Below the pieces are notes generated by a model, which had not been told where the DNA came from, did no database searches, and saw only the letters and a program-made list of their open reading frames with translations. Shown piece by piece: positions 10,622 through 13,678 of a stretch of DNA of 13,678 bases. Position 1 is the first letter of the stretch. The number at the start of each line of letters is the position of its first letter. The translations under genes and the position numbers were made by a program. Source of the DNA: Mariprofundus sp. (lineage in GTDB: Bacteria; Pseudomonadota; Zetaproteobacteria; Mariprofundales; Mariprofundaceae); assembly GCA_015485035.1 (NCBI GenBank), contig WFUI01000028.1:1-13678 (forward strand), written 5' to 3'.

Positions 10622-12610
10622 ATGAATAATCAAAGCAGACAGGAAATCTCACCCGATTTTTTGGCCGCCATGAATCTGGATGCGGATTCTCCCGACCCAT
10701 GTGTAATCGTGGTGTTCGGCGCATCGGGTGATTTGACCAAACGCTTGCTGATTCCCTCCCTGTTTAATCTCTATTGCGATCATCTGTTGCCGGATTCCTT
10801 CGCTATTCTCGGTATGGCCATGGATGAATACAGTACCCAGACGTTCCGGGCCAGAATGACAGAAGATGTGCATGTTTTTTCACGTCAGGAGCAGTTTGAC
10901 GATGCTGCCTGGGCGGATTTCTGCGACCGGATTCACTATCTGAAAGGCCGCTTTGATGATGAACATGCATTCCAGCAGTTAAAGAAATTCCTTCAGGCGC
11001 TGGACGGGCGTCATGACACCGGTGGTAATATTCTATTTTATATGGCTACGCCGCCCTCCGTGTTCAGCATGATTTCTACCGGTCTGGAACAGGTCGGACT
11101 CAATGATGGCAAAGGTAGCTGGCGACGAATCATCGTGGAAAAGCCGTTCGGCACCGATCTGGCATCGGCGCGTAAGCTGAACCGGGAAATTCTTACCTAC
11201 TGGCGCGAAGATCAGGTGTATCGTATCGACCATTATCTGGGCAAGGAAACGGTGCAGAACCTGCTCGCATTCCGTTTCGCCAACGGCATGTTCGAGCCGC
11301 TGTGGAATCGTACTCATATCGATCATATCCAGATTACCGCCACCGAACAGGTCGGGGTGGAGTGGCGGGGCGGTTATTATGACCAGTCCGGTGTGATTCG
11401 CGATATGATTCAGAATCATTTGTTTCAGATGATGGCCTATTTGTGCATGGAGCCGCCAACCTCGTTCGAGGCCGAAGCCATTCGTAATGAAAAGTTCAAA
11501 CTGCTCAGTGCCGTGCGCATCATGAAGCCGGAAGAGGTGCGTTATAATGCTGTGCGCGGCCAGTATGATGAAGGTGTCAATGTCGATGGTTCGCCAGCCA
11601 GGGCATATCGGCAGGAACATGCGGTTGATCCGCATTCCAATACCGAAACCTATGCAGCGGTGAAGTTACGCATTGATAACTGGCGCTGGCACGGGGTTCC
11701 CATCTTTCTGCGTTCGGGCAAGGCGCTGCGCACCAAGTCCACCGAGATTGTCGTGCAATTCCGTCGTGCGCCGGAGTTCACCTTCAAGGGTACGCCGGCT
11801 TCCGGCCAGCTGGAAGCCAATCAGCTGATTTTCCGTATCCAGCCCAATGAGGGTATCGAGATTCGTTTTCTGGCCAAGCGGCCCGGGCCGTCGATGCATA
11901 TGCGCAAGGTCAATATGAACTTTGAATATGACGAGGCATTTATCACGCATCCGGGCACCGGTTATGAAACCATGTTGTACGATTGCATGCACGGCGATCC
12001 CTCGCTGTTTTCGCGCTCGGATCTGGTGGAAACGGCATGGAGCATCGTGCAGCCGATTCTGGATGTATGGGGCAGTGAAAAGGCTCGCGACTTCCCCAAT
12101 TATCCGTTCGGCTCATGGGGGCCGAAAGCGGCATTTAATCTGCTCGCACCCGATCACCGGCGCTGGCTGGCGCGGACACCGCAGCAGGCGCTTGAGCGCG
12201 TGCCGATGTTTGAGGGGAGCGGCAAAACCATGCTTCACGCCTTTGCCATGATGCTCAAACCGGCTGTATTCAATGCCGGCGATGAAATTGCCAGATACGG
12301 TGATGAAGGACGCGAGCTGTTCATTATTGAAATGGGCAGCGTGGATATTATTGATCAGGAAGGAGATGTCGTCACCACCTTGAGCGACGGACAGGTGTTT
12401 GGCGAATTGAGCCTGCTGGTGACCAAAAAACGCCGTGCATCAGTGCGTGCGGTAACATACTGCGCCCTGTATATCATGGAAAAACGCGATTTCTGCAAAG
12501 TATTGATGGACAGGCCCCAGTTTGCCGGTCGCCTCATGCATACTGCGCGAGAGCGTTATAATGTCATCGTCGATGCCCAGGAATGGCTGGCATCGGATGA
12601 TCTGGATTAA
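10622..12610 (+). CDS. zwf: Glucose-6-phosphate dehydrogenase fused to a cyclic-nucleotide-binding-like domain
   Basis: This enzyme oxidises glucose-6-phosphate to 6-phosphogluconolactone with NAD(P)+, the first step of the oxidative pentose phosphate or Entner-Doudoroff route. The 662 residues exceed the usual 480-510. Residues about 27-515 are a complete enzyme: FGASGDLTKRLL (32-43, cofactor loop), EKPFG (173-177), RIDHYLGKE (201-209; His204 and Lys208), RDMIQNHLFQ (260-269; general base His266), IFLRSGKAL (361-369) and GSWGPKAA (497-504). After a linker, residues about 536-650 look like a cNMP-binding (CAP-ED) domain: FNAGDEIARYGDEG, LFIIEMGSVDII, then the phosphate-binding cassette FGELSLL with RRASVRA (593-610; Glu595, Arg604), then helices. 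No DNA-binding helix-turn-helix follows. The gap from glnE (10555-10621) holds no clear terminator. The Shine-Dalgarno (GGAT, 10609-10612) is weak; Met17 is a less likely start. A gnd gene follows. The enzyme call is firm and the extra domain is very likely; ligand binding is inference. Confidence 0.95.
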   Translation: MNNQSRQEISPDFLAAMNLDADSPDPCVIVVFGASGDLTKRLLIPSLFNLYCDHLLPDSFAILGMAMDEYSTQTFRARMTEDVHVFSRQEQFDDAAWADFCDRIHYLKGRFDDEHAFQQLKKFLQALDGRHDTGGNILFYMATPPSVFSMISTGLEQVGLNDGKGSWRRIIVEKPFGTDLASARKLNREILTYWREDQVYRIDHYLGKETVQNLLAFRFANGMFEPLWNRTHIDHIQITATEQVGVEWRGGYYDQSGVIRDMIQNHLFQMMAYLCMEPPTSFEAEAIRNEKFKLLSAVRIMKPEEVRYNAVRGQYDEGVNVDGSPARAYRQEHAVDPHSNTETYAAVKLRIDNWRWHGVPIFLRSGKALRTKSTEIVVQFRRAPEFTFKGTPASGQLEANQLIFRIQPNEGIEIRFLAKRPGPSMHMRKVNMNFEYDEAFITHPGTGYETMLYDCMHGDPSLFSRSDLVETAWSIVQPILDVWGSEKARDFPNYPFGSWGPKAAFNLLAPDHRRWLARTPQQALERVPMFEGSGKTMLHAFAMMLKPAVFNAGDEIARYGDEGRELFIIEMGSVDIIDQEGDVVTTLSDGQVFGELSLLVTKKRRASVRAVTYCALYIMEKRDFCKVLMDRPQFAGRLMHTARERYNVIVDAQEWLASDDLD

Positions 12611-12619
12611 AGAAAAACG

Positions 12620-12787
12620 AAAAGCAATTACCACGGAGTACGCAGAGTTAAAGGCAAGGCATGTTTGTAGAAGCCACATAACAAATGAATGTCCATAGTT
12701 ATCATCAGATCAAAAATGTGCATGCCTCATTATTTTCTATTGGTTTACTCTGCGAAACTCTGCGTACTCTGTGGTGAAAGATTTTGA
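12620..12787. repeat. Inverted-repeat element, copy 2 (MITE-like, 168 bases)
   Basis: Arms ACCAC-GGAGTACGCAGAGTT (12630-12649) and the matching 12756-12775 are inverted repeats with 19 of 20 Watson-Crick positions and one G-T. An inner GGCATG (12658-12663) can pair with CATGCC (12721-12726). The right side also has a tandem ACTCTGCG at 12747 and 12757 followed by ACTCTG. The outer ends match copy 1 at 3990-4087: AAAAGCA-TTACCAC on the left, and GTGGTGAAA then TTTTGA on the right. The arm interiors and the centre differ in sequence. It occupies nearly the whole gap between zwf and gnd, ending just before the gnd Shine-Dalgarno. No ORF is seen inside. Confidence 0.75.
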
Positions 12788-12809
12788 ATTTGAAAAAAGG
12801 AGACGAATG

Positions 12810-13678
12810 ATGAAACTGGCAATGATTGGATTGGGTCGCATGGGCGGCAATATGGTGAAGCGTTTGATGCAGGGTGAGCATGAAGTGGTCGCCTTCGATG
12901 TGGATGCAGCACCGGGCATAGCCCTGGCCGATGAGTTTGAAGGTGTATCGGCGGCCAGCAGTCTGGTCGATGTGATTGCACAGCTGCCGACGCCACGCGT
13001 GATCTGGGTGATGGTGCCGCATCAGTTTGTCGATGGCACGATTGCCGGTTTGCTGGAGGCCGGTGTCGAGGCAGGCGATCTGATTATCGATGGTGGTAAT
13101 TCCAATTATAAGGAAGGTCAGCGTCGCGGCGCTGAACTGGCCGAAAAGGGTGTGCTGTTTGCCGATTGCGGCACCTCCGGTGGCGTCTGGGGCTTGCAGA
13201 ACGGATACTCGCTGATGATTGGCGGCGAAAAAGCAGCCATTGATCTGATTGCGCCGGCACTGACCACGCTGGCCTCGAATGACGGCAAGGGCTGGGGCCA
13301 TATGGGGCCGATCGGTTCCGGTCATTTCGTCAAGATGGTTCATAATGGTATGGAATACGGCATGATGCAGGCCTTTGCCGAAGGCTTTGAACTGATGAAA
13401 GCCAAAGAGGAATTCGATCTGGATATGCACCAGATATCACGCGTATGGCAGCATGGTTCGGTGGTCAGTTCATGGTTGCTGGATTTGACCGGCGATGCGC
13501 TGGAGGCCGATGGTGATCTCTCATCTTTGTCCGACTGGATGGATGATTCCGGCGAAGGGCGCTGGACCGCCAAGGAGGCGATTGATTTGGCCATTCCGAC
13601 CCCGGTGATGACACTGGCCTTGCAGATGCGTTTCCGCAGCCGTCAGACAGATGCATTCGCAGGCAAGATCGTCAATGC
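12810..13678 (+). CDS. gnd: 6-phosphogluconate dehydrogenase, decarboxylating, short NAD-type (3' end outside window)
   Basis: This enzyme oxidatively decarboxylates 6-phosphogluconate to ribulose-5-phosphate, the third step of the oxidative pentose phosphate pathway. The frame is open to the right edge, giving 289 residues. The short single-repeat form of about 300 residues would need only about ten more. Landmarks are the Rossmann loop GLGRMG (7-12), IIDGGNSNY (92-100), DCGTSGGVWGLQNG (119-132), and FVKMVHNGMEYG (173-184) with catalytic Lys175 and Glu182. The second strand ends in FDVD, an acidic residue where NADP+-dependent enzymes have Asn-Arg-Thr, which points to NAD+ preference. AGGAG (12798-12802) lies seven bases before the ATG at 12810; the adjacent in-frame ATG at 12807, four bases away, could also be used. 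It sits downstream of zwf across an inverted-repeat element, and no lactonase gene lies between. The family is firm; cofactor preference is inferred. Confidence 0.95.
   Translation, partial: MKLAMIGLGRMGGNMVKRLMQGEHEVVAFDVDAAPGIALADEFEGVSAASSLVDVIAQLPTPRVIWVMVPHQFVDGTIAGLLEAGVEAGDLIIDGGNSNYKEGQRRGAELAEKGVLFADCGTSGGVWGLQNGYSLMIGGEKAAIDLIAPALTTLASNDGKGWGHMGPIGSGHFVKMVHNGMEYGMMQAFAEGFELMKAKEEFDLDMHQISRVWQHGSVVSSWLLDLTGDALEADGDLSSLSDWMDDSGEGRWTAKEAIDLAIPTPVMTLALQMRFRSRQTDAFAGKIVN

Follow-up and report, generated by a model that had tools for sequence, protein, structure and literature searches.

We found that the window, a stretch of 13,678 nucleotides from Mariprofundus sp., encodes a polypeptide in which a glucose-6-phosphate dehydrogenase (G6PDH) core and a canonical cyclic-nucleotide-binding (CNB) domain are both intact. 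The fused gene, a zwf extended by a C-terminal CNB domain, lies at 10622..12610 on the forward strand and is a single open frame of 662 amino acids plus stop with matches to PF00479, PF02781 and PF00027. On balance, we lean slightly toward the view that its product is an isoenzyme of G6PDH on which a cyclic nucleotide acts directly as an allosteric regulator, a function predicted here from the sequence.

No account of a G6PDH-CNB fusion was found among the papers listed in searches of the open-licence full-text literature, which has most subscription journals outside it; this agrees with the sequence-only reading, which knew of no described CNB-regulated G6PDH. The word dehydrogenase is absent from the accessible text of a survey of 30 CNB families (Kannan 2007, PMC2246266), and a CASP16 paper (PMC12750041) was rejected as an account of the fusion, the targets in its accessible part being unrelated. 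Public databases annotate these proteins with both Pfam domains, so that the architecture is visible there, and no discussion of it was found in the literature covered.

Domain architecture and sequence constraint

The catalytic core (residues 22-515, 10685..12166, forward strand) is complete in a profile search, scoring 220 bits with PF00479, 394.7 bits with PF02781 and 615.4 bits with TIGR00871, all above cut-off. D203, H204 and K208 of the DHYLGKE motif and the histidine H266, all of which have catalytic roles, are present in 239 of 239 fused proteins (237 of them distinct); since these proteins were selected by the DHY-GKE motif, H266 alone is an independent test of the active site. Family profiles and active-site residues together identify the polypeptide as a G6PDH, predicted to oxidize glucose 6-phosphate with NAD(P)+. 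Among solved structures of plain bacterial G6PDH, the nearest by sequence are the Synechocystis entries 9emm/9emn and the nearest by fold is that of L. mesenteroides (1dpg). Plain enzymes for the most part stop near residue 515-520 in the numbering of the fused protein, whereas the fused enzyme adds 147 residues of CNB (516-662); the frame, which had been said to run about 145 residues past the usual end, is indeed unbroken to residue 662.

The added part begins with a linker and the N-terminal CNB helices (residues 516-545, 12167..12256, forward strand; model helices 520-525 and 535-542). Its length is fixed, with 31 residues from W515 to L545 in 234 of 237 fused proteins and 32 in the other 3. 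The beta-roll (residues 549-629, 12266..12508, forward strand) matches PF00027 above the gathering score with an E value of 5e-16, and a search with the tail by itself gave 202 distinct solved sequences at E <= 0.01, with the CNB of the SthK channel and relatives of PKA and PKG among the best 60 of these. In the structure model from which the fold was taken (the second, a monomer; the first had a pLDDT of 65), pLDDT is 84-95 (means of ten) from residue 541 to 630. The tail is predicted to form a beta-roll with a cassette helix and C-terminal helices, as in CNB domains; the latter helices cover residues 621-646 (12482..12559, forward strand; model helices 621-630 and 632-646) and include the conserved R645 (0.98) and Y646 (0.96). 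A fold comparison of the model with solved structures gave one CNB entry among the 50 matches listed.

The phosphate-binding cassette spans residues 590-610 (12389..12451, forward strand). Its glutamate, Glu595 (12404-12406; PKA Glu200), is kept in 236 of the 239 fused proteins, and its arginine, Arg604 (12431-12433; PKA Arg209), nine residues on, is kept in 234; Arg605 (12434-12436) follows. Two misses at each position belong to the truncated or partial P0180 and the frame-slipped P0176, and the remaining exceptions are four otherwise intact proteins, P0028, P0031 and P0048 at Arg604 and P0042 at Glu595. Ala606 is nearly invariant, and Gly560 in the beta2-beta3 loop, which we take to be the counterpart of PKA Gly169, is 97% conserved. 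In CNB families, conservation of such a loop glycine goes along with that of the cassette arginine, according to the accessible text of Kannan 2007 (PMC2246266). The assignment of the tail as a canonical CNB domain thus has the support of the profile match, the solved relatives, the predicted fold and the conserved residues. The sequence-only reading had made the same domain call, with Glu595, Arg604 and Arg605 placed as found here, and the profile search and the fold part of the structure prediction that it had proposed both bear it out.

In comparisons of the window with nine close genomes, of which two were saturated and seven computable, dN/dS was 0.013-0.141 for the tail (residues 530-650) and 0.034-0.100 for the core. 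The tail value exceeded that of the core in three of the seven, the most distant ones, where dS is near saturation and the values are therefore rough. Core and tail distances are correlated among 90 sampled proteins (r 0.864; 0 of 500 permutations as high). These data show that core and tail have been kept together under purifying selection, ligand residues included. The conservation also bears on whether the CNB might work without a ligand, as an oligomerization or docking domain. A canonical cassette is missing from the CNB-like domains of Fnr, FixK, NnR and similar families, as described in the accessible text of Kannan 2007 (PMC2246266); evolution is quicker in the tail, with a mean pairwise difference of 0.521 against 0.347 for the core, and four members have lost a cassette residue. 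However, the cassette positions rank with the most strongly conserved ones in the tail, and a purely structural role would not need such conservation, which makes a ligand-free domain quite improbable in our judgement.

Occurrence and origin of the fusion

A frame of this kind could be an artefact in which a sequencing or assembly frameshift merged zwf with an adjoining CNB gene, and such errors do occur among these proteins, as in the database relative P0176, whose sequence points to a frame slip where the two parts join. Against this, full-length fused matches are present in 40 of 78 Zetaproteobacteria genomes, the fusion is found in Mariprofundus ferrooxydans PV-1, and the CNB is in frame with the G6PDH C-terminal domain (G6PD_C) at 23 of 23 named loci. 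A frameshift, which the sequence-only reading had named as a refutation of the fusion, is thereby excluded in practice, and we assign it a vanishingly small probability. Two apparent tail losses were likewise dismissed, that in P0176 as a frame slip by reading of the sequence and that in P0180 because the entry is named partial.

A search with the tail gave 71 proteins, of which 68 have both G6PD_C and CNB; PV-1 and other Zetaproteobacteria are among the named fused ones. Across the 78 Zetaproteobacteria genomes, the fusion (a frame of at least 640 residues; the same 40 genomes align to residue 650 or beyond, and a short partial match in G245 was left out) occurs in 40 and is absent from 38, plain zwf occurs in 36 (a few partial), both in 17 and neither in 19. 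At a completeness of at least 90% (n = 42), the corresponding numbers are 26 with fusion, 25 with plain zwf, 13 with both and 4 with neither. In 221 other Pseudomonadota genomes, no G6PDH match extended past residue 550 among the matches listed, and those that passed about residue 525 mostly ran through a stop codon.

The survey of zwf homologues of about 660 residues that had been suggested from the sequence yielded fused relatives in Zetaproteobacteria and in other phyla. The tail of the divergent protein P0068 retrieved 68 proteins, 47 of them fused and including a second fused group; 28 aligned fused proteins of this search are 50-57% identical to the window protein. A tail-only alignment scan of named genomes gave the 23 loci mentioned above, which belong to Rokubacteria, a Verrucomicrobiaceae metagenome-assembled genome, Acidobacteria, Blastocatellia, Myxococcales, Bdellovibrionales, Gallionellaceae, Pseudomonadales, other Gammaproteobacteria and three Zetaproteobacteria; all come from metagenome bins, so that individual taxon labels may be wrong. 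L051 and L055 among them are cut by contig ends, and L057 has a split frame. With the core of a Rokubacteria member as query, 118 of the best 120 of 8000 proteins carry the CNB, and the remaining two are the frame-slipped and the partial entry mentioned above. Planctomycetota are represented by Isosphaeraceae and Tundrisphaera lichenicola in this search and by Urbifossiella in the P0068-tail search, and Acidobacteriota, where the fusion is rare, by 2 of 199 genomes, one being the query's own.

Because residue 605 differs between branches, independent fusions in Zetaproteobacteria and elsewhere had been suspected; they were ruled out by three core-only trees, in which Zetaproteobacteria rows were thinned and the incomplete L051, L055 and L057 left out. 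In the first tree, built from 57 fused rows and 25 plain ones, a branch with support of 100/100 separates the two kinds, and the fused rows group together again in a quick tree with 40 plain rows (SH-aLRT 100). A third tree, for which ten fused and four plain rows (L116-L119) of the quick tree were dropped and one fused row was added, has 98 rows (48 fused and 50 plain, Acidobacteriota included) and contains a single fused clade (100/100), whose sister is a pair of plain Acidobacteriota enzymes (97/93). As far as the trees tell, there was a single fusion event. A plain Acidobacteriota enzyme is 53% identical to the fused L050, to which the fused window protein is 51.5% identical. The patchy occurrence suggests that the fusion moved by horizontal transfer.

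The nearest unfused relatives of the P0068 tail include the ion-channel CNBs P0116, P0118, P0120 and P0121, three of the four being named Leptospira; domains of this type are a possible source of the fused CNB. Related CNBs also occur on architectures with a PF02163 peptidase, a PF00924 mechanosensitive channel or a PF07992 oxidoreductase (P0122, P0126, P0128-P0130, P0134 and P0136). In one Rokubacteria genome, a frame of 1611 residues adjoins the fused zwf (L046:5458-10290, forward strand), with consecutive matches to transketolase, transaldolase and phosphoglucose isomerase; judged by these matches, it is a pentose phosphate multi-enzyme fusion.

Related CNB proteins and the nature of the ligand

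The channel CNBs of SthK (4d7s) and 5v4s are among the closest solved sequences, aligned through the cassette with E values of 2e-22 to 5e-22. The motif R-T-A-[ST]-V-R-A occurs in most members of the second fused group, in SthK and in the Channel_Bact consensus given in the accessible text of Kannan 2007 (PMC2246266). The output of an SthK-type CNB is channel gating, whereas the fused protein is a soluble enzyme and has Arg at residue 605 in the window. Mycobacterial Pat is a soluble bacterial enzyme with a CNB, although its enzyme part is an acetyltransferase, unlike G6PDH. The NCBIfam model of Pat matches the tail at 2.9e-15, but with 53 and 56 bits, far below the cut-off of 460, and an identity with Pat was rejected. 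The family 2B encapsulin (38.9 bits on the tail, cut-off 400) is likewise bacterial with a built-in CNB; it is a shell protein, while the fused G6PDH is an enzyme.

At residue 605, the Zetaproteobacteria-like proteins (split from the others at 64% core identity to the window protein) carry R in 31, Q in 22, K in 6, T in 3 and others in the remainder of 71, whereas the other fused proteins carry T in 93, N in 23, S in 18, A in 13 and others in the remainder of 168. Thr after the cassette arginine is PKG-like; it is also present in SthK, so that it does not settle the case for cGMP. Arg605 of the window matches neither the Ala of PKA nor the Thr of PKG, a feature of selectivity that is not defining for a CNB. 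As the residue after Arg604 varies between branches, one common ligand is not assured. Residue 597, presumably the place of PKA Ala202, is S, A, G or C in fused proteins wherever a residue is present.

These positions need to be weighed against the idea that the CNB is a working switch for something other than a purine 3',5'-cyclic nucleotide, be it a different kind of nucleotide, cyclic or not, or a metabolite. The split at residue 605 (Arg, Gln or Lys in 59 of 71 versus Thr, Asn, Ser or Ala in 147 of 168) speaks for it, as does the known change of ligand in the CNB of Trypanosoma PKA, which binds nucleosides according to the accessible part of PMC10959531. Yet the Trypanosoma type, with Glu at the Ala202 place and Arg209 lost, was rejected here, as the window has Ser at residue 597 and keeps Arg604. 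Moreover, Glu595, Arg604, Ala606 and Gly560 are nearly invariant, and the consensus of a bacterial CNB family provides a precedent for a basic residue after the cassette arginine (GEMALLSGQERKASVIA; accessible text of Kannan 2007, PMC2246266). We therefore regard such a ligand as unlikely. Returning to a purine cyclic nucleotide, cAMP is the likeliest candidate, which we place somewhat below even, whereas cGMP appears distinctly doubtful.

The genome of the window encodes five class III cyclases (PF00211) and eight CNB domains distributed over seven proteins, the fused G6PDH included. At the sites that select the purine, three of the cyclases have Lys and Thr in a standard context, and one is divergent around these sites. 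The fifth (C8:6127-6585) has Glu and Gly there. We take Lys and Thr to be adenylate-cyclase-like and Glu and Gly to be possibly guanylate-cyclase-like, so that the fifth enzyme possibly makes cGMP. Class III cyclases were found in 77 of 78 Zetaproteobacteria, in 23 of 23 named fused genomes and in 5 of 14 genomes of a control panel. They are equally common where the fusion is missing (37 of 38 Zetaproteobacteria), so that their co-occurrence does not discriminate and was dismissed as proof of a cyclic-nucleotide ligand; it shows just that a ligand can be made.

Genomic context and proposed control

In the window, the fused zwf is flanked by a gene read by eye as glnE and one read by eye as gnd, the latter 6-phosphogluconate dehydrogenase-like (12807..13678, forward strand; start codons at 12807) and cut by the window end. 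The counterpart of gnd at the same place in L067 matches the 6-phosphogluconate dehydrogenase families. Fused zwf, gnd, plain zwf and 6-phosphogluconolactonase stand in a row on one strand at L067:3393-8643 and L068:3357-8653 (gnd and lactonase family matches checked for L067, one of the two loci), and a fused and a plain G6PDH may therefore be co-expressed there. Outside Zetaproteobacteria, no shared gene partner was found among 17 neighbours at 8 loci; with two L067 neighbours, the scan covered 19 neighbours at 9 of the 23 loci. The gap between zwf and gnd contains an imperfect 30-base inverted repeat (12620-12785) with arms 106 bases apart; 24 bases of one arm recur with at most 3 mismatches at four other places of the genome, two of them facing on one contig, and the repeat is probably a dispersed element.

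A second G6PD_C match, partial in some cases, is present in 20 of the 23 named fused genomes, and the window's genome (96% complete) has one match, so that a plain partner is frequent and not constant. Three of the named genomes (G319, G320, G321) share contig coordinates with G116, G176 and G088 from the survey of the class, of which they are therefore not independent. RuBisCO is present in the window's genome and, among Zetaproteobacteria, in 34 of 40 genomes with the fusion and 26 of 38 without it (p 0.11), or in 26 of 26 and 13 of 16, respectively, at a completeness of at least 90% (p 0.049). The link of fusion and RuBisCO is thus marginal, and a clear link was discarded. In two Zetaproteobacteria genomes (G080 contig 59 and G104 contig 124; L148 and L150), a distance of about 4 kb, with other genes in it, separates the fused zwf from the gene for the large subunit of RuBisCO.

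Allosteric control by a nucleotide is plausible for this protein. The product of a class III cyclase would bind the cassette, with Glu595 contacting the ribose and Arg604 the cyclic phosphate. Binding may move the C-terminal CNB helices, and the movement may pass through the fixed-length linker beside the end of the catalytic domain to change G6PDH activity or the state of the tetramer. In other CNB-regulated proteins, the empty CNB inhibits and the ligand relieves inhibition; the same sign here would be a guess by analogy. In an autotroph, such a switch could keep the oxidative pentose phosphate pathway off during CO2 fixation, avoiding futile cycling, and start it when needed; in genomes that also have a separate plain zwf, the latter may provide flux free of cyclic-nucleotide control. 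The arrangement would resemble cyanobacterial G6PDH, the enzyme of an autotroph switched by a regulator: oxidized OpcA binds its tetramer and raises activity, as stated in the accessible part of PMC13071761. Autotrophs hence do control the G6PDH step via an added regulator. OpcA, however, is a separate redox-sensing protein, whereas the regulator of the fused enzyme is a CNB in the same chain.

Bacterial cyclic nucleotides are mostly thought to act through transcription factors such as CRP. We tentatively propose, at a confidence that falls short of even, a widespread and undescribed class of second-messenger-gated G6PDH that goes back to one ancient fusion, is patchy over about seven phyla and changed its ligand preference at residue 605 in the Zetaproteobacteria branch, with the cyclic nucleotide acting directly on entry into the oxidative pentose phosphate pathway and bypassing transcription. 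The fusion is a single soluble protein, for which the plain isoenzyme, often in the same genome, is a natural control. If the proposal is true, the multiple class III cyclases encoded in these genomes would gain a direct metabolic target, and a cyclic nucleotide acting directly on G6PDH would adjust the supply of NADPH and the flow of carbon within seconds.
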